Positions 38,380 through 58,269 of a stretch of 64,000 nucleotides of DNA are shown here, piece by piece (position 1 is the stretch's first letter; the number at the start of each line of letters is the position of its first letter). This DNA is from Delftia sp. PS-11. GTDB taxonomy: Bacteria > Pseudomonadota > Gammaproteobacteria > Burkholderiales > Burkholderiaceae_C. The notes under the pieces were generated by a model. It was not told where the DNA came from, ran no database searches, and worked only from the letters and a program-made list of their open reading frames with translations. The translations under genes were made by a program, and so were the position numbers. The stretch lies in contig NZ_JACSYA010000007.1 in NCBI RefSeq assembly GCF_029870285.1, positions 142,186 through 206,185 on the forward strand. Direction: 5' to 3'.

Positions 38380-38396
38380 GACACAAAGTGTATGCA
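38380..38396 (-). promoter_or_regulatory. Putative GntR operator before puuD
   Basis: On the minus strand TGCATACACTTTGTGTC, one of four related elements in the window (consensus TGYATACASTTTNTGK). It lies about 130 bases before the puuD ATG and shares CATACACTTTGTG with the copy before uraH in the same orientation. Confidence 0.6.
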
Positions 38397-38435
38397 ATTT
38401 CCTGGCAACACTGTGGTTTGCGCAGCATCAATACA

Positions 38436-39299
38436 CTAGAGATTTCCCTGATTCTGCACCAGGAATGCACTGCGTCGCTGCAAAAGCTGTGCCGCCACGG
38501 CCACAGCGATGACCTCGGGCTCCTTGCCCCGGATGCCGGGCACGCCGATGGGACAGGTTACATGGTCCAGCTCCTGGTCGCTGAAGCCGCGCTCGCGCAG
38601 CCGGCGCCGGAAGGTGGCCCACTTGGTGGCGCTGCCGATCAGGCCCACATACGGCAGGTCTGCCTGCTCGCGCTGGCGGCGCAGGCACTGGGCCACCACC
38701 TCCAGGTCTTCGGCGTGGCTGAAACTCATGATCAGCACCTGGGCGCCGGCCGGCAGGTCGGCCACGGCGGACTGCACGGGATCGGAGTACTCGCACTGCA
38801 CCAGCTCGTGCGGCGCTTCGGGAAAGACTTCATCGCGGCTGTCCACCCAGACCACGCGGTAAGGCAGCTGGCACAGCAGGCGCACCAGCGCATGGCCGAC
38901 ATGGCCCGCGCCGAACAGGGCCACGCAGTCACGCGGCGGCTGAAGGCGCTCCCGCAGCAGGTCCATGCGGCCCTGGGGCACGAAGCGAAAGCCCAGCACC
39001 ACCACGCCGCCGCAGCACTGGCCCAGGCTGGGCCCCAGCGGATAGCGGTGCTGGCGCATGGCTGGCGGCTCTTGCTGCGGGCCCTGCACCGCCCCATCGC
39101 GCAAAAAGCCACGGGCCTGGTCCAGGGCATCGAACTCCAGATGCCCCCCGCCAATGGTGCCCACCGTGCGGTCGGCAAATACCGCCATCCAGGCACCGCG
39201 CTCGCGGGGGACGGAACCTCGCGAATCCAGAACCTCCACCCAGCACAGCGGCCCCTGCTCCAGGCCCTGCTCCACTGTCTTGAATGTGTCACTCCACAT
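38436..39299 (-). CDS. xdhC: Xanthine dehydrogenase accessory protein
   Basis: A 287-residue XdhC, which inserts sulfurated molybdenum cofactor into xanthine dehydrogenase. CWVEVLDSRGSVPRERGAWM at the N-terminus, GTIGGGHLEF, GQCCGGVV and the Rossmann motif LFGAGHVGHAL are diagnostic. ATG beginning MWSDTF is preferred; earlier in-frame codons encode non-homologous sequence. It lies upstream of puuD on the same strand (186 bases apart). The enzyme genes xdhA and xdhB are not in the window, so xdhC is separated from its partners here. Confidence 0.9.
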   Translation of the reverse strand: MWSDTFKTVEQGLEQGPLCWVEVLDSRGSVPRERGAWMAVFADRTVGTIGGGHLEFDALDQARGFLRDGAVQGPQQEPPAMRQHRYPLGPSLGQCCGGVVVLGFRFVPQGRMDLLRERLQPPRDCVALFGAGHVGHALVRLLCQLPYRVVWVDSRDEVFPEAPHELVQCEYSDPVQSAVADLPAGAQVLIMSFSHAEDLEVVAQCLRRQREQADLPYVGLIGSATKWATFRRRLRERGFSDQELDHVTCPIGVPGIRGKEPEVIAVAVAAQLLQRRSAFLVQNQGNL

Positions 39300-39431
39300 G
39301 CGCGCACCTGCCAGCCCGTCGTGGCGCCTGCGGGCTTCGTTGTTGTTGGTTGCGAGATTTTTTCCCTGCGGCGCCCTGGTGTTGCGCTCCGACTGCATGG
39401 CGCCGCATTGTTTCAGGATACGCTTGCCATC

Positions 39432-39920
39432 ATGCCTGATTCTTCCGATTCTTCTCAGCACAGTTCCCCATCCAGGTCACATGCCGGCCGGCCCTGGCTG
39501 TGGGCCGGCGTGGTGGCCGCCATCGCCTCCCTGGTGACCGCCTGCAAATCGCCTCCGGGCCCCGGCCCGCGCGGCGGCGATGCGCCGTCCAGCACCCAGG
39601 CCGAATACCGCCAGAGCGCGGCCCGCCACCTGTATGCCCGCAACGCCGACCGCATCTACCAGGGCAAGCTGCCCCCCATGCTCTATGCGATCGGCGTGCT
39701 GCAGCTGCAGATCGACCGCAGCGGCCAGGTCCAGCGCGTGCAGTGGATGCGCGCGCCCAGCCACGCCCCCGAGGTCGTGGCCGAGATCGAACGGCTGGTG
39801 CGCGCAGCAGCGCCATTTCCCGTTCCCGCAGGCGCCAGCCGAATCACCTATACCGACACCTGGCTCTGGGACAAGTCTGGGCGTTTCCAGCTCGATACGC
39901 TGACGGAAGGGCAGCTGTAA
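39432..39920 (+). CDS. Small lipoprotein with TonB C-terminal-like domain
   Basis: A 162-residue protein with an N-terminal hydrophobic segment ending in a VTAC lipobox, a short Gly/Pro linker and a domain (about 75-150) with VLQLQIDRSGQVQRVQWMRAP followed by AAPFPVP, the pattern of TonB C-terminal domains. It lacks the usual long Pro-rich periplasm-spanning region, so it is not a standard energy transducer. Divergent from xdhC with 132 bases between; no exbB/exbD nearby. Function unknown. Confidence 0.7.
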   Translation: MPDSSDSSQHSSPSRSHAGRPWLWAGVVAAIASLVTACKSPPGPGPRGGDAPSSTQAEYRQSAARHLYARNADRIYQGKLPPMLYAIGVLQLQIDRSGQVQRVQWMRAPSHAPEVVAEIERLVRAAAPFPVPAGASRITYTDTWLWDKSGRFQLDTLTEGQL

Positions 39921-39972
39921 CCAGCTGAAAAGCCAGCAAGGCCGGCCAGGTGCAGGCAGGGCGGCTGGCGCT

Positions 39973-40557
39973 CTACTCGACGACCTTGGTGATCTTGGAG
40001 CCCTGCAGCGAGACGCCAGCCTCCAGGCCCGCGTTAGTCAGCACATAGCTGGCCACGGGGCCTTCGGCGGTCGTGGTGTCCACGCTGCCGTTGGCACCGA
40101 CCCGGCCCACGGCCACAGTGGCGTCGGCACCGACCGACCAGCCGTCGCTGGCCAGGAACTTGTTCAGTGCCTGCTGGGTGTTGAAGACATAGATCACGGC
40201 CTTGGACTGGCCGCCAGCCTGCCAGCCCACCGACGCGCCCGTGGTGCTGTAAAAGCCCTTGTTGTGGCCGCCCACACGCAGCACGCCACGGCCATGCTCG
40301 ACACCGACGATGAAGCTGCCGCCAATCACCGAGGGGAAGATCAGCACGCCCTTGGCGCGTGCCACCATTTCCCGGGCGCCGGGAGCCGTCTGGTACAGCC
40401 GCTCCAGCGCGGCATTGGCGCGCGCATTGACCGTGGTGCTGTCCGCACGCGGTGCGGCCTGTGTCTCGGGCCTGGTGGTCGTGCAGCCGACCATGGCCAG
40501 GCTGCCAGCCGCCAGGGCCATGACCAGTGCGGTGGTACGCAAAGAAAACTCACGCAT
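39973..40557 (-). CDS. YSC84/SYLF-domain lipoprotein
   Basis: A 194-residue lipoprotein: signal ending in MVGC, then a SYLF lipid-binding domain with AKGVLIFPSVIGGSFIVG and an NKFLASDGWSVGADATVAVG stretch. Bacterial members are abundant envelope proteins of unclear role. Convergent with the TonB-like gene. A 282-base spacer separates it from the divergent DoxX gene and holds an inverted repeat. Confidence 0.88.
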   Translation of the reverse strand: MREFSLRTTALVMALAAGSLAMVGCTTTRPETQAAPRADSTTVNARANAALERLYQTAPGAREMVARAKGVLIFPSVIGGSFIVGVEHGRGVLRVGGHNKGFYSTTGASVGWQAGGQSKAVIYVFNTQQALNKFLASDGWSVGADATVAVGRVGANGSVDTTTAEGPVASYVLTNAGLEAGVSLQGSKITKVVE

Positions 40558-40688
40558 GTTTGAACCTGCCTTTCGTCGCTATGTCGGGCATCAGGGCAAA
40601 ACCTGCCGGCCTGGCGCGCGCCCTCTCACGTGCACCAAGCCCCTCTGCGTCCATATGGCGGCACGCATGAGGCCGGGCAGATGCTAGA

Positions 40689-40717
40689 CATCTTGTGCTC
40701 GGGCAGATCGCAAGATG
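40689..40717. repeat. Inverted repeat CATCTTG/CAAGATG in the YSC84-DoxX spacer
   Basis: Perfect seven-base arms separated by 15 bases, midway between two divergent envelope genes. Operator or hairpin; nothing else identifies it. Confidence 0.35.
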
Positions 40718-40839
40718 CGCCATAGGACTACAGGCGCAAGGTTCGCGCCTGCATGCACAGGCAAGCACAGCGCATTCAGGACACAAAGTGCCAGAATGCA
40801 GCATCCGGGCCATGCTTTGCATCCCAGGCGAGAGAGTCC

Positions 40840-41229
40840 ATGAAGTTCTGGAACCACTTCCACCACCCCCGTGCCGCCATGGCACTGCTGCGCACCACGC
40901 TGGCGGTGTTGATGCTGCTGCATGGCTGGGCCAAGCTGCGCTACGGCATCGGCGGCATCGAGAGCATGGTGCAAGCTGCCGGCGCTCCTGGCTGGCTGGC
41001 ATATGCGGTCTATCTGGGGGAGGTGGTCGCACCCCTGATGCTGCTGGTTGGCCTGTGGGTGGTGCCTGCAGCTTTGGTGGTCGCCATCAATATGGCCGTG
41101 GCCTTCGCATTGGCGCACACGGGCCAGGTGCTGCAGCTGCACAGCTCCGGCGGCTGGGCGCTGGAGCTGCAGGCGCTTTTCCTGGTCTGCGCGCTGGTGG
41201 TGGCCTTGGGCCATCCACAGGGCCGGTAA
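40840..41229 (+). CDS. DoxX family membrane protein
   Basis: A 129-residue protein with four hydrophobic segments and the DoxX-type LHGWAKLRYGIGGIESM stretch followed by a GxxE motif (YLGEVVAPLMLLVG). Members are small inner-membrane proteins often linked to redox or quinone chemistry; no specific role can be assigned. Convergent with uraH, a hairpin lying between. Confidence 0.85.
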   Translation: MKFWNHFHHPRAAMALLRTTLAVLMLLHGWAKLRYGIGGIESMVQAAGAPGWLAYAVYLGEVVAPLMLLVGLWVVPAALVVAINMAVAFALAHTGQVLQLHSSGGWALELQALFLVCALVVALGHPQGR

Positions 41230-41239
41230 AGGCCCAATG

Positions 41240-41270
41240 GCAGGAAGGGCGACAGCAGCGCCCTTCTTGC
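41240..41270. terminator. Hairpin between DoxX and uraH
   Basis: Twelve-base arms (one G-U) around a seven-base loop between convergent genes. No T-run on either side. Confidence 0.45.
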
Positions 41271-41326
41271 AGGTCAAGTCACTCCAGGCCATCCCCCGAC
41301 AGCCTGTCTGCGCCAGTGGGCCGGGG

Positions 41327-41677
41327 TCAGGAGCCCCGGTATGTGGAATAGCTCCAGGGGCTGACCAGCAGCGGCACGTGGTAGTGCTGGTCGGCATGGG
41401 CCACGCCGAAGTCCAGGCTGACACGGTTCAGGAAGTTGGGCTCGGGCAGTTGCACGCCGCGCGCCTTGAAATAGGCCGCCACATCGAAGGTCAGCCGGTA
41501 GGTGCCTGTCTTGAGGCTGTGGTTGTCAAACAGCGGCGCATCGGTGCGGCCATCGTGGTTGAGCACCAGGCTCTTGATCAGCGTGGCCTGTTCGCCATCA
41601 GTGGAATACAGCGCGACGGCCATGCCCGCTGCGGGGCAGCCGTTCATGGTGTCAAGGACGTGGGTGCTCAGGCCCAT
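41327..41677 (-). CDS. uraH: 5-hydroxyisourate hydrolase (transthyretin-like)
   Basis: A 116-residue HIU hydrolase, the step after PuuD. The N-terminal GLSTHVLDT, central LNHDGRTDAPL, and C-terminal HYHVPLLVSPWSYSTYRGS carry the conserved catalytic His, Arg, His and the YRGS tail that distinguishes the enzyme from vertebrate transthyretin. A GGAGA ribosome site precedes the ATG. It is a single-gene unit with the shared GntR-type motif in its promoter region. Confidence 0.95.
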   Translation of the reverse strand: MGLSTHVLDTMNGCPAAGMAVALYSTDGEQATLIKSLVLNHDGRTDAPLFDNHSLKTGTYRLTFDVAAYFKARGVQLPEPNFLNRVSLDFGVAHADQHYHVPLLVSPWSYSTYRGS

Positions 41678-41771
41678 GGGAATCTCCTGTGCGGCGGGCA
41701 CCGGCCCGCCCTGGTTGTCATTGAAGGCATCATGCAGTCCAGGGCCCGCGACAGCACTCGCGGCCCTGCTG

Positions 41772-41788
41772 TGCACCCACAAAGTGTA
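41772..41788 (+). promoter_or_regulatory. NtrC-like site upstream of ggt, overlapping the GntR motif
   Basis: TGCACC-CACAA-AGTGTA: left arm perfect, right arm two mismatches from the NtrC consensus. Its centre is about 97 bases upstream of the predicted ggt sigma-54 start and it overlaps the GntR-type motif shared with uraH. Confidence 0.4.
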
Positions 41789-41801
41789 TACAGTTTTTGT
41801 A
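41776..41801. promoter_or_regulatory. Putative GntR operator between uraH and ggt
   Basis: Centred on TGTATACA. Reading plus gives TGTATACAGTTTTTGTA; reading minus gives TGTATACACTTTGTGGG, so both arms match the element seen at the other three loci. On the minus strand a TTGCTT box lies 17 bases ahead of TGTATA, so the motif may occupy the uraH -10 region. Confidence 0.6.
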
Positions 41802-41850
41802 CTCTCTTGAAGCAATACTGCCGTGATCCATCTAGGCAGATACCCGGCCC

Positions 41851-41866
41851 TGGCACCGCTTTTGCA
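41851..41866 (+). promoter_or_regulatory. Sigma-54 promoter of ggt
   Basis: TGGCAC-CGCTT-TTGCA is a full match to the -24/-12 consensus with GG and GC ten bases apart. Predicted start near 41877, about 79 bases before the ggt ATG. Confidence 0.82.
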
Positions 41867-41955
41867 AGTGGCCGCATCGCCTATGCTTTCGCTTGCGCCC
41901 GGACCGCGCCAACAGCCGGTGCCGGGCCTTTTTCCATCCTCACCAGGAGACTTCG

Positions 41956-43788
<1,833 letters not shown>

Positions 43789-43795
43789 AGCCAGA

Positions 43796-43827
43796 AAAAG
43801 CCGCGCCCGTTGCCAGGCGCGGCTTTT
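43796..43827. terminator. Rho-independent terminator, bidirectional
   Basis: Perfect 12-base arms AAAAGCCGCGCC / GGCGCGGCTTTT around an eight-base loop, with A-run and T-run on the two sides, between convergent ggt and glxR. Confidence 0.85.
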
Positions 43828-43885
43828 CACAACAGGGCGGCGCCAGGCCGCCCAACCCCACCCACCGGGGTTCAGAGGGCAGGCA

Positions 43886-44803
43886 TCACGCCTGCGCAGC
43901 TTTCTGGCCGACTTCGAAGTTGGCCTGGATCTCCAGGGCGCGCACCAGGGCCGAGTGGTCCCAGCCCGCGCCGCCATGGGCCACGCAGCTGTTGAACAGC
44001 TCCTGGGCCTGGGCCGTGTTGGGCAGGGACACGCCGAGCTGGCGTGCGCTGCTCAGGGCCAGATTCAAGTCTTTTTGGTGCAGCGAAATGCGGAAGCCCG
44101 GCTCGAACGTGCGCCGGATCATGCGCTCGGCATGCACTTCCAGGATCTTGGACGAGGCAAAGCCGCCCAGCAGCGCCTCGCGCACGCGGGCCGGATCGGC
44201 GCCTGCGCGCGATGCGAACAGCAGGGCCTCGGCCACAGCTTCGATGTTCAGCGCCACGATGATCTGATTGGCCACCTTGGCGGTCTGGCCATCGCCATTG
44301 CCGCCCACCAGGGTGATGTTCTTGCCCATGCGCTCGAACAGCGGCCTGACGCGGGCGAACACCTCCTCGGGGCCACCGACCATGATGGACAGCGTGGCGT
44401 TCTTGGCGCCCACCTCGCCGCCGGAGACCGGCGCGTCCAGGTACTGCGCGCCGATGGCCTCGATGCGGCGTGCGAAGTCCTTGGTGGCCACGGGCGAGAT
44501 GGAGCTCATGTCCACCACCACCTTGCCGCTGCTGCCCTTGAGCCCGGCGGCCACGCCGTCTTCGCCGAACAGCACTTTCTCAACATCGGGCGTGTCGGGC
44601 AGCATCAGGAAGATGATGTCGGCGCGCTCGGCCACGCCGCGCGCCGTGGTGCATTGGGTCGCGCTGCTTTCGGCGATCTGCGCGGGGACCTTGCCCAGGG
44701 TGTTGACGTACAGCTGGTGGCCCGCCGAGATCAGGTGGCCTGCCATGGGTGCGCCCATGATGCCCAGGCCGACGAAACCGAGCTTGAGGGAAGATGCATT
44801 CAT
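43886..44803 (-). CDS. glxR: Tartronate semialdehyde reductase
   Basis: A 305-residue beta-hydroxyacid dehydrogenase (GlxR/GarR) reducing tartronate semialdehyde to D-glycerate. The cofactor motif GFVGLGIMGAPMAGHL, the DAPVSGGEVGA substrate loop and the catalytic lysine in GQTAKVANQIIVALNIEAV are all present. Last gene of gcl-hyi-glxR, 53 bases after hyi. The D-glycerate can be phosphorylated by the TtuD/GckA product encoded 4 kb away. Confidence 0.94.
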   Translation of the reverse strand: MNASSLKLGFVGLGIMGAPMAGHLISAGHQLYVNTLGKVPAQIAESSATQCTTARGVAERADIIFLMLPDTPDVEKVLFGEDGVAAGLKGSSGKVVVDMSSISPVATKDFARRIEAIGAQYLDAPVSGGEVGAKNATLSIMVGGPEEVFARVRPLFERMGKNITLVGGNGDGQTAKVANQIIVALNIEAVAEALLFASRAGADPARVREALLGGFASSKILEVHAERMIRRTFEPGFRISLHQKDLNLALSSARQLGVSLPNTAQAQELFNSCVAHGGAGWDHSALVRALEIQANFEVGQKAAQA

Positions 44804-44856
44804 ACGGTGTACTCCTTGTGGTTCTTGGGAAATCTTGGAAAAAATCGCTGCAGCGC

Positions 44857-45645
44857 TCAGGCGGCGACCGCCACCTGTGTGCGCAGCCAGCCCAGGCCCG
44901 ACTCGGTCTCGCGCGCAGGCTTGTACTCGCAGCCCACCCAGCCCTGGTAGCCGATGCGGTCCAGGTGCGCAAAAAGGAAGGGGTAGTTGATCTCGCCCGT
45001 GCCCGGTTCGTTGCGGCCCGGGTTGTCGGCCAGCTGCACATGGCCGATGCGCCCCAGGTGCTTTTGCAGCGTGGCGGCCAGTTCACCCTCGGTGCGCTGC
45101 GCGTGGTAAATGTCGTATTGCACGAAGGCGTTGGAGGCCCCCACTTCATCGAGGATGGACAGGGCCTGGTCCGTGCGGTTCAGGTAGAAACCGGGGATAT
45201 CGAAGGGGTTGATGGGCTCGATCAGCAGGCGCAGCCCGGCATCCGCCAGTTCGGTGGCGGCAAAGCGCAGGTTATCGACCAGCGTGCGGCGCAGCGTGGC
45301 GGCATCGGCACCTGCCGGGGCCTTGCCGGCCAGGCAGTTGAGCTGGGGCACCTCCAACGCCTTGGCATAGGCCACGGCCTTGGCCACGCCGGCACGGAAC
45401 TCATTGACGCGACCGGGGTCGCAGGCAATGCCGCGCTCGCCCGCGTCCCAGTCGCCTGCGGGCAGGTTGTGCAGCACGATGCGCAGGCCATGGGCGTCGA
45501 TGCGTTCCTTGATCTCCTGGGCCGTGTGGGCGTAGGGGAACAGGAACTCCACGGCCTCGAAGCCGGCGCGCGCCGCGCGCTCGAAACGGTCGAGGAAAGG
45601 CACCTCGGTGAACAGCATGCTGAGGTTGGCTGCGAAACGGGGCAT
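44857..45645 (-). CDS. hyi: Hydroxypyruvate isomerase
   Basis: A 262-residue TIM-barrel isomerase interconverting hydroxypyruvate and tartronate semialdehyde. Diagnostic segments: FAANLSMLFTEVPFLDRF at the start, EPINPFDIPGFYLNRT and VQYDIYHAQRTEG (metal-binding Glu, Asp, His), and VGCEYKP near the end. Middle gene of the glyoxylate operon, 81 bases after gcl. Confidence 0.94.
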   Translation of the reverse strand: MPRFAANLSMLFTEVPFLDRFERAARAGFEAVEFLFPYAHTAQEIKERIDAHGLRIVLHNLPAGDWDAGERGIACDPGRVNEFRAGVAKAVAYAKALEVPQLNCLAGKAPAGADAATLRRTLVDNLRFAATELADAGLRLLIEPINPFDIPGFYLNRTDQALSILDEVGASNAFVQYDIYHAQRTEGELAATLQKHLGRIGHVQLADNPGRNEPGTGEINYPFLFAHLDRIGYQGWVGCEYKPARETESGLGWLRTQVAVAA

Positions 45646-45726
45646 GTCAGAAGTCTCCGGTTGTCATTGGGCGGGTTGATAGCGGCAAGGCGCGGACGCC
45701 CTGCCGGCAGAAAATCAGCAGAGGGT

Positions 45727-47517
<1,791 letters not shown>

Positions 47518-47591
47518 GGGAGGTCTCCTTCAAACTGGAGACAACTCTAGGCAGACCGGGCCGCTGGCGGAACGCCTGCACGGACCATAAA

Positions 47592-47614
47592 ATTTATTCC
47601 GCACAGGAATAAAT
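47592..47614. promoter_or_regulatory. Palindromic operator between gcl and LysR
   Basis: ATTTATTCC-GCACA-GGAATAAAT: perfect nine-base arms with a five-base spacer in a 121-base divergent spacer. The core fits a LysR-type T-N11-A box. Confidence 0.65.
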
Positions 47615-47638
47615 ATCAATGCAAAAGGAGACCGTGCA

Positions 47639-48556: not shown

Positions 48557-48571
48557 GCGCCTGAAACAAGC

Positions 48572-48592
48572 GGCCGGGCGCACATCCCGGCC
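48572..48592. terminator. Hairpin between LysR and ttuD
   Basis: GGCCGGG and CCCGGCC around a seven-base loop between convergent stops; only a weak T-rich stretch follows on the minus strand. Confidence 0.4.
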
Positions 48593-48624
48593 TCGAAAAA
48601 CAACCACCCGGCAGGGGCAAAAAC

Positions 48625-49947: not shown

Positions 49948-50059
49948 GGTATGGGGTCTCCGCCGGCCATTATGGAATTTCCCGCGCCGGCGGTGGCATG
50001 CGGCCAGGTCAAAACTGATTCGCCCGCTTCGCCAGGCGCCGGGCACCGGGCACCGGGCG

Positions 50060-51025
50060 CTACTCCAGCGTCACCTTGGCCTCCTTGACCAGCTTGGCGA
50101 AACGGGCCGTGTCGTCACGGATCTGGCGGGCCATCTGCTCGGGCGAGCCGCCGATGGGCTCCGCGCCGATCTCTTCCATCTTGCGGCGAAACGGCGGCGA
50201 CTCGATGATGCGGTTCATGTCAGTCCCCAGCCGCGCCAGCACCTCCTTGGGCGTGGCGACAGGCGCCAGCACGCCGAACCAGGTGCCCATGTCAAAGCCC
50301 TTGAGGCCCGCTTCGTCCATCGTGGGTACATCGGGCAGCGCCACCGACCGCCTGGCCGTGGTCACGGCCAGCGGGCGCAGCTTGCCGGCCTTGATGTGGG
50401 GCAGCACGGGCGTGACGGTATCGAAGGACATGGTGACCTGCCCGCCCAGCAGGTCCGTGGTCAGCGGCCCGCTGCCCTTGTAGGGAATGTGCAGCAGATC
50501 CACGCCACCCTGGCTCGCGAATTGCGAGCCGATCAGGTGCTGGCCCGTGCCTGCGCCGTTGGAGCCATAGGTGAGCTTGCCTGGCTGGGCCTTGGCCTGG
50601 GCCAGCAACTCCTGCACGTTCCTGGCTGGCACCTGGGGGTTGACCACCAGCACATTGGGCACCACCGCAACCATGGTGATGGGGGCAAAGTCCTTTTGCA
50701 GGTCGTAGCCCAGCTTGCGGTAGACGCTGGTGGCGATGGTGTGGTGCACAGCCCCCATCAGCAGCGTATAGCCGTCAGGCCGGGCCTTGGCCACATGGTC
50801 AGCGCCCAGAGTGGCGCCCGCGCCGGGACGGTTCTCGACGATCACAGGCTGGCCCAGGCTCTTGGACAGCTCCTGGCCCAGGGCCCGCGCCAGCACGTCG
50901 GTCGTGCCGCCCGCTGGAAAGGGAACGATGAGGCTGACCGGGCGCGCGGGCCAGGCCTGGGCCCAGGCTGCAGGAATGGCGCCTGCGACGAGTGCGCATG
51001 CGACGGCGTGGGTGATGCGGTGCAT
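50060..51025 (-). CDS. Bug-family tripartite tricarboxylate receptor
   Basis: A 321-residue TTT-type periplasmic binding protein: Sec signal ending AWAQA, then WPARPVSLIVPFPAGGTTDVLAR, the Bug-family start, and LTYGSNGAGTGQHL and IPYKGSGPL. No TctA or TctB membrane genes are near, as is common for Bug proteins, which may act with a transporter elsewhere. Sandwiched between ttuC and ttuD, so a dicarboxylate such as tartrate or malate is a reasonable ligand guess. Confidence 0.9.
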   Translation of the reverse strand: MHRITHAVACALVAGAIPAAWAQAWPARPVSLIVPFPAGGTTDVLARALGQELSKSLGQPVIVENRPGAGATLGADHVAKARPDGYTLLMGAVHHTIATSVYRKLGYDLQKDFAPITMVAVVPNVLVVNPQVPARNVQELLAQAKAQPGKLTYGSNGAGTGQHLIGSQFASQGGVDLLHIPYKGSGPLTTDLLGGQVTMSFDTVTPVLPHIKAGKLRPLAVTTARRSVALPDVPTMDEAGLKGFDMGTWFGVLAPVATPKEVLARLGTDMNRIIESPPFRRKMEEIGAEPIGGSPEQMARQIRDDTARFAKLVKEAKVTLE

Positions 51026-51070
51026 GGCTTGTCTCCTTGATGTTGTTGTACGGACCATGGCCGGTCACAT

Positions 51071-52165
51071 TCAGGCGGCCACGGCCTCTGCCACCTGAGC
51101 CTTCAGCCGTGCACATACGGCATCGGTCACCTGCTGGGTGGTAGCACGGCCGCCCAGGTCGCGCGTGTGCAGCGCGGCATCGGCCGTAACCTGCTCCACC
51201 GCCTGCATCAGCCGCTGCGCGGCCTGCTGCTCGCCCAGATGCTCCAGCAGCATCACGCAGCTCCAGAAAGTGCCCACGGGATTGGCCAGTCCCTGGCCCA
51301 TGATGTCGAAGGCCGAGCCATGGATGGGCTCGAACATGCTGGGGTAGCGGCGCTCGGGGTCGATGTTGCCCGTAGGCGCAATCCCCAGGCTGCCGGCCAG
51401 CGCGGCAGCCAGGTCGCTGAGGATGTCGGCATGCAGGTTGGTGGCGACAATGGTGTCCAGCGTGGCCGGGCGATTGACCATGCGCGCCGTGGCGGCGTCC
51501 ACCAGTTCCTTGTCCCAGCGCACATCGGGGAACTCGGCGGAGATCTGGGTGGCGATTTCATCCCACATCACCATGGCATGGCGCTGGGCGTTGGACTTGG
51601 TGATCACCGTCAGCTGCTTGCGCGGCCGCGATTGCGCCAGCCGGAAGGCAAAACGCATGATGCGCTCCACGCCCGCGCGGGTCATCATGCTCACATCGGT
51701 GGCCACCTCGATGGGGTGGCCCTGGTGGGCGCGTCCACCCACGCCCGCATACTCGCCCTCGGAGTTCTCGCGCACGATGACCCAGTCCAGATCCTGGGGG
51801 GTGCAGCGCTTGAGCGGCGCATCGATGCCAGGCAGGATGCGCGTGGGCCGCACATTGGCGTACTGGTCAAAGCCCTGGCAGATTTTCAGGCGCAGGCCCC
51901 ACAGCGTCACATGGTCGGGGATGTGCGGATCACCGGCCGAACCGAACAAGATGGCGTCCTTGTCGCGCAGCGCGTCCAGCCCGTCGGCCGGCATCATCTC
52001 GCCATGGGCGCGGTACCAGTCGCCGCCCCAGCCGTAGCTGGTGAAGTCAAAGCCCAGGCCCGGCTGGGTATCGGCCAGCGCCTGCAGCACGGCCTGCCCT
52101 GCGGGCACCACCTCCTTGCCGATGCCATCACCGGGGATGCAGGCGATGCGATAGATCTTGCTCAT
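51071..52165 (-). CDS. ttuC: Tartrate dehydrogenase / D-malate dehydrogenase (decarboxylating)
   Basis: A 364-residue member of the isocitrate/isopropylmalate dehydrogenase family of TtuC/DmlA type. IPGDGIGKEVVPAG at the N-terminus, RENSEGEYAGVGGR, the catalytic lysine in TKSNAQRHAMVMWDE, and the metal-binding Asp in NLHADILSDLAAAL, with FEPIHGSAFDIMGQG near the end. The enzyme oxidises tartrate or decarboxylates D-malate. First gene of its operon, divergent from a LysR gene, the arrangement known for ttu and dmlA/dmlR loci. Confidence 0.9.
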   Translation of the reverse strand: MSKIYRIACIPGDGIGKEVVPAGQAVLQALADTQPGLGFDFTSYGWGGDWYRAHGEMMPADGLDALRDKDAILFGSAGDPHIPDHVTLWGLRLKICQGFDQYANVRPTRILPGIDAPLKRCTPQDLDWVIVRENSEGEYAGVGGRAHQGHPIEVATDVSMMTRAGVERIMRFAFRLAQSRPRKQLTVITKSNAQRHAMVMWDEIATQISAEFPDVRWDKELVDAATARMVNRPATLDTIVATNLHADILSDLAAALAGSLGIAPTGNIDPERRYPSMFEPIHGSAFDIMGQGLANPVGTFWSCVMLLEHLGEQQAAQRLMQAVEQVTADAALHTRDLGGRATTQQVTDAVCARLKAQVAEAVAA

Positions 52166-52260
52166 GAATGTGCTCCTTGTGTGCTTGTTGTCTCAAGGGC
52201 CACGGCAATCCATGGCCTTGTCCGTGAATCTATCGATGCGCCATGCAGATGGATGCTTCT

Positions 52261-52283
52261 AAAGTGATGGCATTGTTTACTTT
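52261..52283. promoter_or_regulatory. Possible LysR operator between ttuC and its regulator
   Basis: AAAGT and ACTTT arms 13 bases apart, overlapped by an ATTG ... CAAT pair, just before the LysR ATG in the 127-base divergent spacer. Confidence 0.4.
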
Positions 52284-52292
52284 GATTCAATA

Positions 52293-53219
52293 ATGAGTAC
52301 TCCTGTCTCGGCGCCATCGGAGATGGCCTTCTTCAGCCTGCTGGCGCGTTGTGCCAGTCTCTCGGCCACCGCCCGCGAACTGGGCATCAGCACGCCTGCA
52401 GCCAGCAAGCGGCTGTCGCAGCTGGAAGCGCGCCTGGGCGTGCAGCTGGTCAGCCGCACGACCCGGCGCCTGGGACTGACCGAGGAAGGGCAGACCTACC
52501 TGGAGCATGCGCGCCGTATCCTCAATGACATTGCCGCCATGGAGCAGGCCGTGACAGGGCTGCACTCCAGGCCGCAGGGGCTGCTGCGCATCAATGCCAC
52601 CCTGGGTTTCGGCCGCAGCCATATCGCACCGCTGATCGCCAGCTTTGTGCGCAGGCACCCGCAGATCCAGGTGCAGCTGCAACTGTCGGCATCGCCCCCT
52701 GCGCTGATCGATGACAGCTTCGACCTGTGCATACGCTTTGGCGAGCCGCCCGATGCGCGCGTCATTGCCCGGCGCCTGGCCCCCAACCGGCGCCTGCTGT
52801 GCGCATCGCCGGCCTATCTGGCCCGGCGCGGCACGCCTGCCACGCCCAGGGAGCTGGTGCAGCATGACTGCATTGATATCCGCCAGGGCGACGAGGCCCA
52901 TGGCGTGTGGCGCTTCACCCAGGACACACAGGGCCGCAGCAAGACCGAAACCATCCGCCTGCGCGACAGCCTGAGCACCAACGACGGAGAGATCGCCGTC
53001 AGCTGGGCGCTGGCGGGCCTGGGCATCGTCATGCGTGCCGAATGGGACATCGCCCGCTACCTGCGCAGCGGCCGGCTGGTGCAGGTGCTGGCCGACCACG
53101 CCACCGCAGCGGCAGACATCCATGTGGTCTACCCGCAGCGCCACGCATCCACGCAGCGTGTGCAGCGCTTCATAGAGCATCTGGCGCGCCACTTCGATGC
53201 GGCATCGCCTGGTTTCTGA
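52293..53219 (+). CDS. LysR-family regulator (DmlR/TtuA-like)
   Basis: A 308-residue LysR protein: helix-turn-helix LLARCASLSATARELGISTPAASKRLSQLE, then LVSRTTRRLGLTEEG and an effector domain. Divergent from ttuC, mirroring dmlR-dmlA and ttuA-ttuC arrangements, so it probably activates ttuC in response to tartrate or malate. It ends 80 bases before the purine-locus GntR gene and on the same strand. Confidence 0.9.
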   Translation: MSTPVSAPSEMAFFSLLARCASLSATARELGISTPAASKRLSQLEARLGVQLVSRTTRRLGLTEEGQTYLEHARRILNDIAAMEQAVTGLHSRPQGLLRINATLGFGRSHIAPLIASFVRRHPQIQVQLQLSASPPALIDDSFDLCIRFGEPPDARVIARRLAPNRRLLCASPAYLARRGTPATPRELVQHDCIDIRQGDEAHGVWRFTQDTQGRSKTETIRLRDSLSTNDGEIAVSWALAGLGIVMRAEWDIARYLRSGRLVQVLADHATAAADIHVVYPQRHASTQRVQRFIEHLARHFDAASPGF

Positions 53220-53252
53220 GCGCCTTATCCGGGGAAACGCCAATAATCAGTA

Positions 53253-53269
53253 GACAGAAACTGTATACA
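53253..53269 (-). promoter_or_regulatory. Putative GntR autoregulatory operator
   Basis: On the minus strand TGTATACAGTTTCTGTC, matching the element found before puuD, uraH/ggt and the NCS2 permease. It lies 31 bases ahead of the GntR ATG; a TATGAT box lies between. Confidence 0.6.
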
Positions 53270-53299
53270 ACTCTTGACCTCTGCCGCTATGATGAAGGC

Positions 53300-53977
53300 A
53301 TGGAGACCTCCACCACCAGTTTCATTGTCGAGAGCCTGACGCGGGCGATCGTCGAGCACCGCCTGCTGCCCGGCACCAAGCTGGCCGAGCAGAAATTGGC
53401 CGACCATTTCGGCGTCTCGCGCACCCTGGTGCGGCAGGCGCTGTTCCAGTTGTCGCAAAACCGCCTGATCCGGCTGGAGCCTGCGCGCGGCGCCTTCGTG
53501 GCCACACCCTCGGTGGACGAGGCGCGCCAGGTTTTCGCGGTGCGCCGCATGCTGGAAGCCGAAATGGTGCGCGCCTTCATTGCCCAGGGCACGCCAGCCA
53601 AGATCCGCGCGCTGCGCCAGCACGTCGCGGCCGAAAAGAAAGCCATGGACGGCAACGATGTCGGCCAGCGCACCGAGCTGCTGGGCGACTTCCACGTGCG
53701 CATGGCAGAACTCATGGGCAACGAAGTGCTGGCCCAGTTGCTGGGCGAACTGATCTCGCGCTGCGCGCTGATCACGCTGATGTACCAGTCGAGCAGCGCC
53801 GCAGCGCATTCCCACGAGGAGCACGCCGAAATCGTCACCGCCCTGGCCAGTGGCGATGCCGACCAGGCAGTGCGCCTCATGCAACAGCACCTGGACCATG
53901 TCGAGGCCGGCCTGACCTTCGACCGCGACATGCCGACCAGCGATCTTTCGATGGCCCTTTCCTCTGTATCCGCATGA
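53300..53977 (+). CDS. GntR-family regulator of allantoin/urate catabolism (FCD type)
   Basis: A 225-residue regulator: winged helix about residues 8-72 (AIVEHRLLPGTKLAEQKLADHFGVSRTLVRQALFQL), FCD domain about 80-205. It is the first gene of a four-gene unit with puuE, uraD-allC and an M20 hydrolase; its TGA overlaps the puuE ATG (ATGA). A copy of the shared TGTATACA motif directly precedes it, suggesting autoregulation, and further copies precede the other urate genes, making this the likely pathway regulator. No clear Shine-Dalgarno; the ATG begins METSTT. Confidence 0.9.
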   Translation: METSTTSFIVESLTRAIVEHRLLPGTKLAEQKLADHFGVSRTLVRQALFQLSQNRLIRLEPARGAFVATPSVDEARQVFAVRRMLEAEMVRAFIAQGTPAKIRALRQHVAAEKKAMDGNDVGQRTELLGDFHVRMAELMGNEVLAQLLGELISRCALITLMYQSSSAAAHSHEEHAEIVTALASGDADQAVRLMQQHLDHVEAGLTFDRDMPTSDLSMALSSVSA

Positions 53978-54930
53978 CCTACGACGCCACTGCCCCCTAT
54001 CCCCGCGACCTGATCGGCTACGGCCGCACTCCCCCGCATGCCCGCTGGCCCGGCCAGGCCCGCGTGGCTGTGCAGTTCGTGCTCAACTATGAAGAAGGCG
54101 GCGAAAACAGCGTGCTGCACGGCGATGCCGCCAGCGAGCAGTTCCTGTCCGAGATGTTCAATCCGGCTGCCTATCCTGAGCGCCACATGAGCATGGAGGG
54201 CATCTACGAATACGGTTCGCGCGCCGGTGTCTGGCGCATCCTGCGCGAGTTCGAAAAGCGTGGCCTGCCGCTGACCGTCTTCGGCGTGGCCACGGCACTG
54301 CAAAAGCACCGCGAGCTGGCAGCTGCCTTCCACGAGCTGGGCCATGAGGTCGCCTGCCACGGCCTCAAGTGGATCCACTACCAGAACATTCCCGCCGAAG
54401 CCGAACGTGCCCACATGCAGCAATGCATGGAGATCTTTGGCGAACTGTACGGCCACGATGGCGACCACGGCCTGGGCTGGTACACAGGCCGCGACAGCCC
54501 CAACACCCACCGACTGGTCGCCGACGACGGCCGCTTCACCTACGACAGCGACTACTACGGCGATGACCTTCCCTTCTGGATGAAGGTGCAAAAGAGCGAC
54601 GGCAGCACGCACAGCCAGCTCATCGTGCCCTACACCCTGGACTGCAACGACATGCGCTTCGCACTGCCCCAGGGCTACTCGCACGCCGACCCGTTCTTCC
54701 AGTACATGAAGGACACGTTCGACGCGCTGTACGCCGAGGGCGACCCGCAGGGCGACGACTCGCCCAAGATGATGAGCATCGGCATGCACTGCCGCCTGCT
54801 GGGCCGGCCCGGACGCATCACCGCGCTGCAGCGCTTCCTCGATCACATCCAGCGGCACGACAAGGTCTGGGTCTGCCGCCGCATCGACCTCGCGCGCCAC
54901 TGGGCAAGCAACCACCCCGAAAAGGAATGA
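53974..54930 (+). CDS. puuE: Allantoinase, PuuE type
   Basis: A 318-residue allantoinase of the polysaccharide-deacetylase fold, converting allantoin to allantoate without the binuclear metal centre of AllB. Diagnostic stretches are RDLIGYGRTPPHARWPG, QFVLNYEEGGENSVLHGD, SMEGIYEYGSRAGVWR and HGLKWIHYQN. Start overlaps the GntR stop by four bases and its stop overlaps the next ATG by four bases, so the whole unit is translationally chained. Confidence 0.95.
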   Translation: MTYDATAPYPRDLIGYGRTPPHARWPGQARVAVQFVLNYEEGGENSVLHGDAASEQFLSEMFNPAAYPERHMSMEGIYEYGSRAGVWRILREFEKRGLPLTVFGVATALQKHRELAAAFHELGHEVACHGLKWIHYQNIPAEAERAHMQQCMEIFGELYGHDGDHGLGWYTGRDSPNTHRLVADDGRFTYDSDYYGDDLPFWMKVQKSDGSTHSQLIVPYTLDCNDMRFALPQGYSHADPFFQYMKDTFDALYAEGDPQGDDSPKMMSIGMHCRLLGRPGRITALQRFLDHIQRHDKVWVCRRIDLARHWASNHPEKE

Positions 54931-56711
54931 CGAGCATGGCACTGACGCTGGAACAACTCAACGCCGCCGATCTGGCAACCGCCGCAGGCCTGCTCGACGG
55001 CCTCTACGAACATTCGCCCTGGATCGCCGAAGCCGCACTGGCCCAGCGCCCTTTCCGTTCGCTGGCCCAGATCAAGTACGCCATGGCACAGGTGCTGGAC
55101 AAGGCACCGCTGCAGGCCAAGCTCGACCTGATCCGCGCCCACCCGGAACTGGCGGGCAAGGCCATGGAGGCCAACACGCTCACGGCCGAATCCACCAACG
55201 AGCAGACCAAGGCCGGCCTGACGCGCTGCACGCCCGAAGAACTGGAGCACATCCGCGCGCTCAACGCCGAGTACGGCAAGCGCTTCGGCTTTCCCTTCAT
55301 CCTGGCGGTGCGCGGGCCGCGCGGCACGGGCCTTGCCAAAGCCGAAATCATCGAGACCTTCGAGCGCCGCCTGCACAACCACCCCGACTTCGAGCTGGGC
55401 GAGGCGCTGCGCAACATCCACCGCATCGCGGAGATCCGGCTCAATGACAAGTTCGGCTACACGCCCGAACTGGGCAACGATGTCTGGGACTGGCAGGAAA
55501 AGCTGGCACAGCACAGCGACCCCGGCTATGCCGAAAAAGGCCAGCTCACCGTCACCTACCTGACCGATGCCCACCGTGCCTGCGCCCAGCGCATCAGCCA
55601 CTGGATGCGTGACTGCGGCTTCGACGAGGTCGAGATTGACGCCGTGGGCAACGTCGTGGGCCGCTACAAGGCTGCCACCGAGGACGCCAGGACCCTGCTG
55701 ACCGGCAGCCACTACGACACCGTGCGCAACGGCGGCAAGTACGACGGCCGCCTGGGCATCTTCGTGCCCATGGCCTGCGTGCGCGAACTGCACCGCCAGG
55801 GCAAGCGACTGCCCTTCCACATCGAAGTCGTGGGCTTCTCGGAAGAGGAAGGCCAGCGCTACAAAGCCACCTTCCTGGGCTCGGGCGCGCTGATCGGCGA
55901 CTTCAAGCAGCAGTGGCTGGAGCAAAAGGACGCCGACGGCATCACCCTGCGCGAAGCCATGCAGCACGCGGGCCTGTGCATCGACGACATCCCCAAGCTG
56001 CAGCGCGATCCGGCCCGCTACCTGGGCTTCATCGAGGTACACATCGAGCAGGGCCCGGTGCTCAACGAGCTGGACATTCCCCTGGGCATCGTCACCTCGA
56101 TCAACGGCAGCGCGCGCTATATCTGCGAGATGACCGGCATGGCCAGCCATGCAGGCACTACACCCATGGACCGCCGCCGCGACGCCGCCACCGGCGTGGC
56201 GGAACTGGCGCTGTACATGGAGCAGCGCGCAGCGCGCGACGGCACCTCGGTGGCCACCATGGGACAGCTCCATGTGCCTAGCGGCTCGGTCAACGTCGTG
56301 CCTGGCCGCTGCCAGTTCAGCCTGGACCTGCGCGCACCCACCGATGCGCAGCGCGATGCGCTGGTGGCCGATATCCTGGCCGAGCTGGACGCCATCGCCC
56401 GGCGCCGGGGCCTGCGCTACACCACCGAACTGGCCATGCAGGCCGCCGCCGCGCCCAGCGCCCCCGAATGGCAGCAGCGCTGGGAAGCCGCCGTGGACGC
56501 ACTGGGCGTGCAGCTGCACCGCATGCCCAGCGGCGCAGGCCACGATGCCATGAAGCTGCACGAAATCATGCCCCAGGCCATGCTCTTCGTGCGCGGCCTC
56601 AACGCGGGCATCAGCCACAACCCGCTGGAAAGCTCCACGGCCGACGACATGCAGCTGTCCGTCGACGCCTTCTCCCACGTACTGAACCAACTGGCCCAAG
56701 AGCAGCAATGA
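54927..56711 (+). CDS. Fused OHCU decarboxylase (UraD) - allantoate amidohydrolase (AllC)
   Basis: A 594-residue bifunctional enzyme. Residues about 1-170 are UraD, decarboxylating OHCU to S-allantoin, with the catalytic histidine near 72 in RAHPELAGK. Residues about 185-590 are an M20/AllC amidohydrolase with GSHYDTVRNGGKYDG (His near 262, Asp near 273), EEEGQRY near 309, HIEQGPVL near 373 and SHNPLESS near 562. It thus performs the steps just before and just after PuuE. The fusion is established in related Burkholderiales. Four-base overlaps join it to both neighbours. Confidence 0.94.
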   Translation: MTSMALTLEQLNAADLATAAGLLDGLYEHSPWIAEAALAQRPFRSLAQIKYAMAQVLDKAPLQAKLDLIRAHPELAGKAMEANTLTAESTNEQTKAGLTRCTPEELEHIRALNAEYGKRFGFPFILAVRGPRGTGLAKAEIIETFERRLHNHPDFELGEALRNIHRIAEIRLNDKFGYTPELGNDVWDWQEKLAQHSDPGYAEKGQLTVTYLTDAHRACAQRISHWMRDCGFDEVEIDAVGNVVGRYKAATEDARTLLTGSHYDTVRNGGKYDGRLGIFVPMACVRELHRQGKRLPFHIEVVGFSEEEGQRYKATFLGSGALIGDFKQQWLEQKDADGITLREAMQHAGLCIDDIPKLQRDPARYLGFIEVHIEQGPVLNELDIPLGIVTSINGSARYICEMTGMASHAGTTPMDRRRDAATGVAELALYMEQRAARDGTSVATMGQLHVPSGSVNVVPGRCQFSLDLRAPTDAQRDALVADILAELDAIARRRGLRYTTELAMQAAAAPSAPEWQQRWEAAVDALGVQLHRMPSGAGHDAMKLHEIMPQAMLFVRGLNAGISHNPLESSTADDMQLSVDAFSHVLNQLAQEQQ

Positions 56712-57985
56712 CCCCCATGAACCACGACAAGCAAGCCACCTACGCCGCACTGGACGCCTGGATCGACCAGCACTTCGACGAGCAGGTGCAATTCCTGCAG
56801 GCCCTGGTGCAAGTGCCTACCGACACCCCGCCCGGCAACAACGCACCGCACGCCGAGCGCACCGCCGAGCTGCTCAAGACCTTTGGCTACGACGCTGAAA
56901 AGCACAGCGTGCCCGAAGCCGAAGTCCAGGCCTACGGCATGCAGTCCATCACCAACCTCATCGTGCGCCGCCCCTACGGCGACGGTGGCCGCACCATCGC
57001 GCTGAACGCCCACGGCGACGTGGTGCCACCCGGCGAAGGCTGGACCAAGGAACCCTACGGCGCCACCATCGAGGACGGCAAGCTCTACGGTCGCGCCGCT
57101 GCCGTGAGCAAGAGCGACTTTGCCAGCTTCACCTACGCCGTGCGCGCGCTCGAAGCCGTGGCGCGCCCCGCCAAGGGCGCCGTGGAACTGCACTTCACCT
57201 ACGACGAGGAATTCGGCGGCATCCTGGGCCCCGGCTGGCTGCTTGCCAACAACCTGACCCGGCCCGACCTGATGGTCGCGGCAGGCTTCAGCTACGAAGT
57301 CGTCACCGCCCACAACGGCTGCCTGCAGATGGAAGTGACCGTGCACGGCAAGATGGCCCACGCAGCCGTTCCGCATACCGGCGTGGACGCTCTGCAGGCC
57401 GCCGTGGCACTGATGAATGCGCTGTACGCGGAAAACACCAAGTACCAGCAGGTCACCTCGAAGGTGCCGGGCATCAAGCACCCCTACCTGAACATCGGCC
57501 GCATCGAAGGCGGCACCAACACCAACGTGGTGCCGGGCAAGGTCGTGCTCAAGCTCGACCGCCGCATGATCCCCGAAGAAAACCCCGCAGAGGTCGAGGC
57601 CAGCATCCGCGCCGTCATTGCCCAGGCCGTGGCCGACTTCAACACCCGGGGCGGGTACGCGGGCGAAGACGCCGTGCGCGTGGACATCAAGCGCCTGTTG
57701 CTGGCCAACGCCATGACCCCCCTGCCCGGCAACCAGCCCCTGGTGGACGCCATCCAGACCCACGCAGAGGCCGTCTTCGGCGAAAAGCCGCCAGCCGTCG
57801 GCACACCGCTGTACACCGACGTGCGCCTGTACGTGGAGCGCGGCATTCCCGGCGTCATCTATGGCGCGGGTCCCCGCACCGTGCTGGAGTCCCACGCCAA
57901 GCGCGCCGACGAACGCCTGGTGCTCGAAGACCTGCGCCGCGCCACCAAGGTGGTGGCACGCATGCTCAGCGACCTGACTGCCTGA
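56708..57985 (+). CDS. M20-family amidohydrolase in the allantoin operon
   Basis: A 425-residue zinc hydrolase of the ArgE/DapE branch: metal ligand motif NAHGDVVPPGEGW near 100, a GRAAAVSKSDFASF segment in place of the usual GRGxxDMKGG, YDEEFGG near 165, and a C-terminal SHAKRADERL. It overlaps the previous gene by four bases and ends the operon before a strong terminator. Its place suggests action on a ureido compound, for example ureidoglycolate or ureidoglycine, since no ureidoglycolate lyase (AllA) is in the window. That function is inference; family membership is firm. Confidence 0.85.
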   Translation: MTPMNHDKQATYAALDAWIDQHFDEQVQFLQALVQVPTDTPPGNNAPHAERTAELLKTFGYDAEKHSVPEAEVQAYGMQSITNLIVRRPYGDGGRTIALNAHGDVVPPGEGWTKEPYGATIEDGKLYGRAAAVSKSDFASFTYAVRALEAVARPAKGAVELHFTYDEEFGGILGPGWLLANNLTRPDLMVAAGFSYEVVTAHNGCLQMEVTVHGKMAHAAVPHTGVDALQAAVALMNALYAENTKYQQVTSKVPGIKHPYLNIGRIEGGTNTNVVPGKVVLKLDRRMIPEENPAEVEASIRAVIAQAVADFNTRGGYAGEDAVRVDIKRLLLANAMTPLPGNQPLVDAIQTHAEAVFGEKPPAVGTPLYTDVRLYVERGIPGVIYGAGPRTVLESHAKRADERLVLEDLRRATKVVARMLSDLTA

Positions 57986-58011
57986 CGCGGCACGCCTGCC
58001 CCGCCTCCCCC

Positions 58012-58035
58012 AACCCGGCTGCGCCGGGTTTTTTT
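58012..58035 (+). terminator. Rho-independent terminator of the puuE operon
   Basis: AACCCGGC-TGC-GCCGGGTT perfect hairpin followed by a seven-T run. Confidence 0.92.
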
Positions 58036-58042
58036 ACGCCCC

Positions 58043-58059
58043 TGCACTGCCTCGGGGCA
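58043..58059 (+). promoter_or_regulatory. NtrC-like site 1 upstream of the NCS2 permease
   Basis: TGCACT-GCCTC-GGGGCA, close to TGCACY-N5-RGTGCA with one clear mismatch. Centre about 126 bases upstream of the predicted sigma-54 start. Confidence 0.55.
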
Positions 58060-58116
58060 TGCGCACCACCGAGGCGCCCCAGCCACGCCTGCCACCGCCC
58101 TGGCCGCACGGCGGCA

Positions 58117-58133
58117 GGCACCAGCACAGTGCC
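58117..58133 (+). promoter_or_regulatory. NtrC-like site 2 upstream of the NCS2 permease
   Basis: GGCACC-AGCAC-AGTGCC, an inverted repeat matching the NtrC core GCAC-N7-GTGC. Centre about 52 bases upstream of the predicted start, closer than usual. Confidence 0.4.
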
Positions 58134-58150
58134 TGCGGCCTCACCGGCGC

Positions 58151-58166
58151 TGGCACCCGTCTTGCA
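58151..58166 (+). promoter_or_regulatory. Sigma-54 promoter of the NCS2 permease
   Basis: TGGCAC-CCGTC-TTGCA is a full -24/-12 consensus match with GG and GC ten bases apart. Predicted start near 58177, giving a leader of about 160 bases that carries the GntR-type motif. Confidence 0.85.
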
Positions 58167-58252
58167 ATGCTGATGCATGCCTGCAGCCCTGCCAGCAGGA
58201 TTGGCACGCCAGCCGCCACAGGGTTTACCGGGAGCAGAAATCCCCCATGAGT

Positions 58253-58269
58253 TGTATACACTTTTTGTA
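58253..58269 (+). promoter_or_regulatory. Putative GntR operator in the NCS2 permease leader
   Basis: TGTATACACTTTTTGTA, differing at one base from the copy between uraH and ggt. It lies about 77 bases downstream of the sigma-54 start, a roadblock position. Confidence 0.65.

Follow-up and report, generated by a model that had tools for sequence, protein, structure and literature searches.

Does a short motif that recurs before dispersed genes of uric acid breakdown bind these genes into one regulon and, if so, which protein reads it? The question is raised by a 64,000-nucleotide stretch of Delftia sp. PS-11 (contig NZ_JACSYA010000007.1, positions 142,186 to 206,185; here the window), in which an original prediction, made from the letters of the DNA alone, had described a 17-base pair motif at four urate and allantoin loci and named the FCD-type GntR regulator at the head of the puuE operon as its reader. 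The set of sites is real and well conserved and very probably marks a regulon, and there are strong grounds for regarding the four elements as operators of the GntR protein encoded at 53300-53977. The mode of regulation and the effector of this protein are less certain than the identity of its operators.

The 17-mer TGYATACASTTTNTGTM matches the window exactly at the four places that had been claimed, 38380-38396 (minus strand), 41785-41801 (plus), 53253-53269 (minus) and 58253-58269 (plus), and gives no match in 100 dinucleotide shuffles of the window. Across the whole genome (5,442,357 bases in 80 contigs), the pattern TGYATACASTTTNTGT occurs four times, always at one of these elements, against an expectation of about 0.002 exact matches from base composition alone and none for the reversed control. 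The restriction of the motif to spacers of pathway genes therefore holds genome-wide, and the many random matches that the prediction had named as damaging to it were not found. With up to two mismatches, TGTATACASTTTNTGT reaches a single extra place outside the window (C3:28268), which has a SAM-methyltransferase gene on one side and a gene for a LysE translocator on the other and shows no visible link to the pathway. At three mismatches, the real pattern falls below its reversed control (36 places vs 52), so this level of the search is noise.

These genome-wide searches used the pattern, while the matrix described below was applied to the window, to 80 related loci and to selected loci. The off-window places within three mismatches number 31, and 25 have loci that were scored; the best of these (L024 with 22.5 bits, L028 with 18.8 and L006 with 16.7, the last being also the best place of the overlapping locus L011) were rejected as sites. 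The L024 match lies in an A/T-rich stretch of the Delftia genome (C23 near 71359), next to a short gene whose product has an Ntox50 (bacterial toxin 50) domain.

Further matches had been expected to be few and to fall mainly at xdh and purine genes. Few they were, and the xdh and purine link was not seen. Only three of 58 xdhC upstreams in related loci carry a site, and the genome-wide pattern search to two mismatches gave no pathway-linked place outside the window. MoCoBD_2 domains, which mark candidates for xdhB, match nine times in the genome, three of the matches being strong and none lying in the window; scoring of four of the nine loci, each 3.4-3.9 kb long, gave no site (best 2.4 bits), and the operon promoters may lie beyond those loci.

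Shape of the operator and its footprint in related loci

The positions 41777-41801 hold two overlapping 17-mer matches on opposite strands, so the element there is a palindrome. The motif was correctly written, and as a unit it is incomplete: judged from aligned sites, the 17-mer is a TGTATACA core together with one arm of a longer palindrome of about ACMAAARTGTATACAYTTTKGT. A two-armed consensus of this form is found in the sites before gntR (52 distinct) and uraH (48 distinct) and, more weakly, in those before puuD (46 distinct); the permease sites (27 distinct) yield a consensus of the core and the gene-side arm only. Outer TKGT-like boxes stand about 10 nt from the centre of the palindrome, inside the 7-12 nt range given for additional half-sites of GntR operators in the available portion of a published account (PMC4494728). 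The same source gives FCD-type GntR operators as palindromes with GT and AC separated by two or three nucleotides (PMC4494728), a spacing rule that the GTATAC-type core with its symmetrical flanks matches, as sequence, in the 80 loci.

These loci are the best 80 of at least 503 confirmed GntR relatives, and each surrounds a GntR homologue of a named genome. In all 80, a G(T/C)ATAC or GTATGC core lies within 130 nt upstream of gntR. A symmetric matrix was trained on their gntR promoters only (44 distinct 24-mers), with the window held out, and ranks the four elements of the window first, at 34.9, 29.3, 29.3 and 24.0 bits; the next place reaches 8.1. The highest score belongs to the element at 41777..41800 (CCACAAAGTGTATACAGTTTTTGT), which has both arms and stands between the divergent uraH and ggt. 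The element upstream of gntR (53254..53277, ACAGAAACTGTATACAACTCTTGA) and that upstream of the permease (58245..58268, CCATGAGTTGTATACACTTTTTGT) score 29.3 bits each, the latter consisting of the core and the right arm only and standing 69 nt upstream of the permease start. The weakest of the four, at 24.0 bits, occupies the xdhC/puuD spacer (38381..38404, ACACAAAGTGTATGCAATTTCCTG on the plus strand); as xdhC ends on one side of it and puuD starts on the other, both on the minus strand, it is upstream of puuD only.

When sites that reach 14 bits are counted in the 350 nt upstream of each gene, leaving out upstreams cut by a locus end, a footprint emerges that follows the pathway. A site precedes gntR (the training class) in 79/79 loci and uraH in 73/73, where it is mostly the site of gntR itself; it precedes puuD in 50 of 57, the NCS2 permease in 29 of 37 and ggt in nine of 14. 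Genes internal to the operon have none (puuE 0/79, uraD-M20 0/74, M20 0/70), nor have gcl (0/18), hyi (0/14), glxR (0/13), maeB (0/32) and the LysR genes (0/23 and 0/7). A DUF4147/MOFRL gene, presumably of glycerate-kinase type, has an upstream site in 12 of 45 loci; it can be divergent from gntR, so that the site of gntR falls within the 350 nt. Altogether, 197 positions in the 1.46 Mb of the 80 loci exceed the threshold, whereas 100 palindromic matrices with permuted columns yield 1.9 on average and 32 at most.

At the gntR promoter of the window, TATACA at 53264-53269, within the operator, is the likely -35 box, and TATGAT (53288..53293, plus strand), the likely -10 box, follows 18 nt later and 6 nt before the ATG. 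The layout TATACA, 16 to 19 nt, TATNAT, 6 to 9 nt, ATG is kept in 76 of 81 gntR promoters (the 80 loci and the window), those of L079, L084, L091, L113 and L130 falling outside it. The spacing between the boxes is 17 nt in 46 of the 76, 18 in 22, 19 in five and 16 in three, and the distance from TATNAT to the ATG is 6 nt in 40, 7 in 34 and 9 in two (6-7 nt in 74/81). The operator core at gntR would thus sit at the -35 position. With a -10 box 6-7 nt from the ATG, transcription would start at the ATG itself, and the gntR promoter is probably leaderless.

The reader of the sites and the rival explanations

The distribution of the site among genomes points to the GntR protein as its reader. In a genus-level set of 37 genomes (that of the window and 36 others), the site with at most one mismatch is present in 32, a gntR orthologue (73% identity or more) in 32 and puuD in 33. 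Site and gntR occur together in 31 genomes and are jointly absent from four (G011, G024, G027 and G036), which also lack puuD, with one genome deviating each way (Fisher p 4e-4, kinship ignored). In an order-wide sample, the near-palindrome AAAGTGTATACASTTT is found with at most one mismatch in 21 of 399 genomes, of which 11 belong to the 12 members of the same family and 10 to the 387 others; the family member that lacks it (G205) has no GntR nearer than 43%.

More weakly, conservation beside distant regulators also supports the regulon. A set of 38 GntR homologues below 60% identity was drawn from among the matches listed, five of them from the genome or family of the window. A site of at least 14 bits is present in 15 of the 18 that have puuE, uraH, puuD or NCS2 within about 1.5 kb, versus five of the 20 that do not (p 4e-4, with rows partly related and some NCS2 neighbours matching at only 27-28%). 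The three with urate neighbours and no site are L217 (10.9 bits), L232 and L245; those with a site and no such neighbours are L236, L237, L244, L248 and L249. L195 was scored as neighbourless through a short locus, and its longer version (L204) lies in a urate cluster and has a 14.1-bit site. Genome uniqueness, the footprint in the 80 loci, co-occurrence in the genus and these distant relatives all favour the reader first proposed.

Some results weigh against this assignment. The 80 loci are related rather than independent, with a GntR at least 90% identical to that of the window in 10 of them; seven of 57 puuD upstreams and eight of 37 permease upstreams have no site over the threshold, and 17 over-threshold sites lie away from recognised regulon genes. 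Among the 37 genomes, G034 (75% complete) has site matches and no gntR found, and G031 has gntR and no match within one mismatch, its gntR promoter carrying AAAATTGTATACAATTTT, which scores 35.0 bits. The 61 genomes searched gave 109 matches vs 12 for the reversed control, as raw table sums over places vetted in part. Ten of the 21 genomes bearing AAAGTGTATACASTTT lie outside the family, and the four places inspected there are divided between the neighbourhood of a urate cluster (two) and that of another GntR cluster (two). The core alone is unspecific: sites of the TGTATACA type are also found with FCD-GntRs that lack urate genes nearby (L237 with 22.4 bits, L200 with 20.4 bits, L205/L206). 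A tree of 46 proteins, 27 labelled as urate-linked and 19 not, needs seven changes, where shuffled labels need 15 on average; because of these seven, the urate-linked GntRs cluster without being shown to form one clade, and several long branches make some placements unsure.

Related shapes and additional copies of the regulator are seen beyond the regulon. In L205 and L206 (genomes G133 and G172), the GntR gene of a Bug / TPP-enzyme cluster, which encodes a different protein (27-28%), is preceded by an almost identical palindrome (AAAGTGCATACACTTT or the complementary sequence); the same operator shape apparently serves another pathway there. Six genus-mates have a second gntR (80-84% identity); in one of them (L209, G019:C1:4275000-4293000) it is followed by a second puuE, adjoins another, divergent FCD-GntR and is preceded by no more than a weak core site of 11.4 bits. 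Plasmids contribute 377 records of GntR homologues, mostly rhizobial and about 42% identical among the rows listed, with one Variovorax protein at 78%.

An alternative in which another regulator, either a paralogous FCD-GntR encoded elsewhere or a neighbouring LysR, reads the sites and gntR is merely one of its targets could draw on the make-up of the genome, which has at least two further FCD-GntR homologues (47% and 41% identity to GntR) and two LysR genes in the region. It is improbable, however: the site stands before gntR wherever it could be counted and before LysR genes nowhere, none of 14 GntR paralogues below 60% has it, the paralogue loci of the same genome (L196 and L223) lack a 14-bit site, and site and gntR are missing together from four genomes. 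Still less credible is a motif that is a common promoter element, part of a sigma-factor site, and no operator. The core does stand at -35 with a TATNAT -10 box at gntR, yet a 24-nt palindrome with conserved arms, at no constant distance from the gene starts, goes beyond such an element, and the exact form is found in the genome only at pathway genes and is missing where gntR is missing. That A/T-rich spacers resemble one another by chance, as the weak L024 match in its A/T-rich surroundings might suggest, can be given next to no weight, since four exact matches at one pathway stand against 0.002 expected and the sites are kept across the family; the shuffles, the genome-wide uniqueness, the held-out matrix and the footprint in 80 loci all led to its rejection.

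The remaining rival accepts GntR as reader and concerns only its mode, leaving the regulon untouched. GntR as an activator, or as activator and repressor at once, would fit the varying distances from site to gene (medians of about 35 nt for gntR, 55 for uraH and 146 for puuD), and the one-armed permease site could be used differently. This option is unlikely, though clearly less so than the others, given the overlap of the core with the -35 position at gntR and the description of the related regulator UgmR as a repressor in the available part of the literature on it (PMC12694930). Repression by GntR with release by urate, by analogy with UgmR, is the most likely mode. A GntR dimer would most likely bind the central TGTATACA palindrome, and affinity or specificity may be added by the A/T arms and by the outer half-boxes, which lie roughly one turn of the helix from the middle. 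Without inducer, the protein would repress its own operon (gntR-puuE-uraD/M20-M20), uraH (perhaps with the divergent ggt), puuD and the NCS2 permease. Where the core covers the -35 position, at gntR, RNA polymerase would be kept out sterically. The operators would be freed by a purine intermediate, in all likelihood urate, and transport into the cell would be switched on together with the conversion of urate to allantoate.

The genes served and the place of ggt

The island appears to encode the conversion of urate to allantoate and also has glyoxylate genes; the sites would serve only that conversion and transport. Urate is presumably oxidised by PuuD (36915..38249, minus strand), a membrane urate oxidase (Pfam Urate_ox_N, 5.6e-125) with a C-terminal cytochrome c-like stretch (Cytochrome_CBB3 at 24.8 bits, under the cut-off of 27); xdhC (38436-39461, minus) stands next to it. 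The hydroxyisourate hydrolase gene uraH (41327..41677, minus; TIGR02962 over cut-off) is divergent from ggt (41956..43788, plus, with a probable start), a gamma-glutamyltransferase gene (TIGR00066 over cut-off). The regulator gene gntR (53300..53977, plus) encodes 225 amino acids with GntR and FCD domains (Pfam 1.9e-15 and 5.5e-25; 56.7 bits against a cut-off of 27 and 88.6 against 24.3), which place it among the FCD-GntRs. The start of the allantoinase gene puuE (53974..54930, plus; TIGR03212 at 483 bits, cut-off 425) overlaps its stop, so the two probably share an operon. They are followed on the same strand by a fusion of uraD with an M20 amidohydrolase of allantoate type (54927..56711; Pfam OHCU_decarbox and Peptidase_M20, NF010373 over cut-off) and by a second M20-family hydrolase (56708..57985; Pfam) with an overlapping ATG, the last gene of the presumed operon.

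The NCS2 permease of xanthine/urate type (58338..59825, plus; TIGR03173 pbuX at 507 bits, cut-off 414) takes its start from relatives. An open reading frame start at 58269 was rejected, as conservation with relatives begins at 58338, and the element at 58253-58269 lies clear of the ATG at 58338, a start common to these relatives. The glyoxylate genes glxR, hyi and gcl (43886-47517, minus) include one named by NCBIfam (gcl); the names of glxR and hyi, which encode Pfam dehydrogenase and TIM-barrel domains, we assume from position and recall.

Gene order in the relatives suggests how the dispersed layout of the window arose. In 60 of the 80 loci, uraH and gntR are divergent with a common spacer; they are separated in 13, and uraH lies outside the fetched stretch in seven. 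Among the 13, ggt is one of the intervening genes in 10. In the window, the two genes are about 12 kb apart and each has a site of its own. On the simplest reading, genes would have been inserted into a shared uraH-gntR spacer, and the operator would have been duplicated or created anew.

The recurrence of ggt in different positions suggests a functional link to the regulon, of which it is a possible member. It is found in 16 of the 80 loci, where it stands next to divergent uraH (seven), at a cut locus end with uraH unseen (two), on the same strand beside the last operon gene (four), between uraH and gntR within about 2 kb (two) or directly before gntR with uraH farther off (one). It lies beside or inside the regulon in L062-L065, L069, L070, L075, L080, L087, L088, L100, L106, L109 and L112, as well as in the window (41956-43788). 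Tentatively, the urate regulon of the Comamonadaceae may be said to take in ggt, a gene that has its operator in common with uraH, stands between two operators or follows the final gene of the gntR operon, depending on the locus. A GGT-family enzyme would then have a role in urate use; insertion of genes into the ancestral divergent spacer would have duplicated the operator and turned one switch into several dispersed ones. This proposal falls somewhat short of probable.

The system offers a compact and testable operator and regulon for the use of uric acid in a large family of environmental bacteria. The 44 distinct 24-mers before gntR alone constitute natural variants for mapping the specificity of FCD-GntRs and, if urate releases the regulator, the system is a candidate part for uric-acid sensing. 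The link to ggt points to an unexplained step.

Relation to known systems

The original prediction held that no operator of this form had been published for urate catabolism. No such urate operator was found in the open-access literature, the scope of the search, with subscription papers outside it; as a general statement the claim is too strong, since the core recurs in the published operator of the FCD-type regulator Atu1419 (PMC7797058) and UgmR had been described (PMC12694930), both as far as these sources were available. The exact motif is possibly, not certainly, new. The main text of a transcription-factor atlas of Pseudomonas aeruginosa gives no motif for PA1520 (UgmR), the accessible part of a 2026 chromatin immunoprecipitation sequencing (ChIP-seq) paper mentions PA1520 a single time, in a different context, and no urate GntR was found in the portion available of a comparative study of 33 proteobacterial regulons.

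In Burkholderia cenocepacia, the GntR gene I35_1967/BCAL2043 is listed as lower in an ntrC mutant (PMC5491218). As here, that gene is near a urate pathway gene, a few locus tags from the urate oxidase gene I35_1963, and no operator is described for it in the part of the report available (PMC5491218). A published counterpart of the core belongs to Atu1419 of Agrobacterium fabrum, a tetrameric GntR of FCD/VanR type that regulates the region for hydroxycinnamic-acid degradation through the operator ATGTATACAT, to which TGTATACA corresponds (PMC7797058). Its DNA contacts, Glu34, Arg45, Thr46 and Arg49 (PMC7797058), are spaced like the helix-turn-helix residues Glu30, Arg41, Thr42 and Arg45 read from the GntR of the window. 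The two differ in pathway and in that the operator of Atu1419, in the excerpt available, is given as a 10-mer, without AAAG/CTTT arms.

Control of the urate pathway by a GntR responsive to uric acid is already known from UgmR (PA1520), a repressor that binds upstream of gcl and PA1513-PA1518 and is relieved by uric acid, as summarised in the accessible text (PMC12694930, citing Xu et al. 2022). Like UgmR, the regulator of the window belongs to the GntR family and would act on urate and allantoin genes, here judged by the sites at uraH, puuD, the gntR-puuE-uraD operon and the permease. Unlike the case of UgmR as described, the gcl cluster would, judged by sites, not be among the targets: the best place in the gcl spacer of the window scores 1.7 bits, and the related loci agree. 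The genes glxR, hyi and gcl thus lie inside the urate island yet have no site of the regulon. A last system, HpxS, we take to serve the use of hypoxanthine and other purines. It is an orthologue group of FadR-subfamily GntRs with two nucleotides between GT and AC in its operator, according to the part of the source available (PMC4494728), a spacing that the GTATAC core also has. Against these known systems, the new elements are apparently this operator and its regulon in the Comamonadaceae and the recurrent recruitment of ggt.

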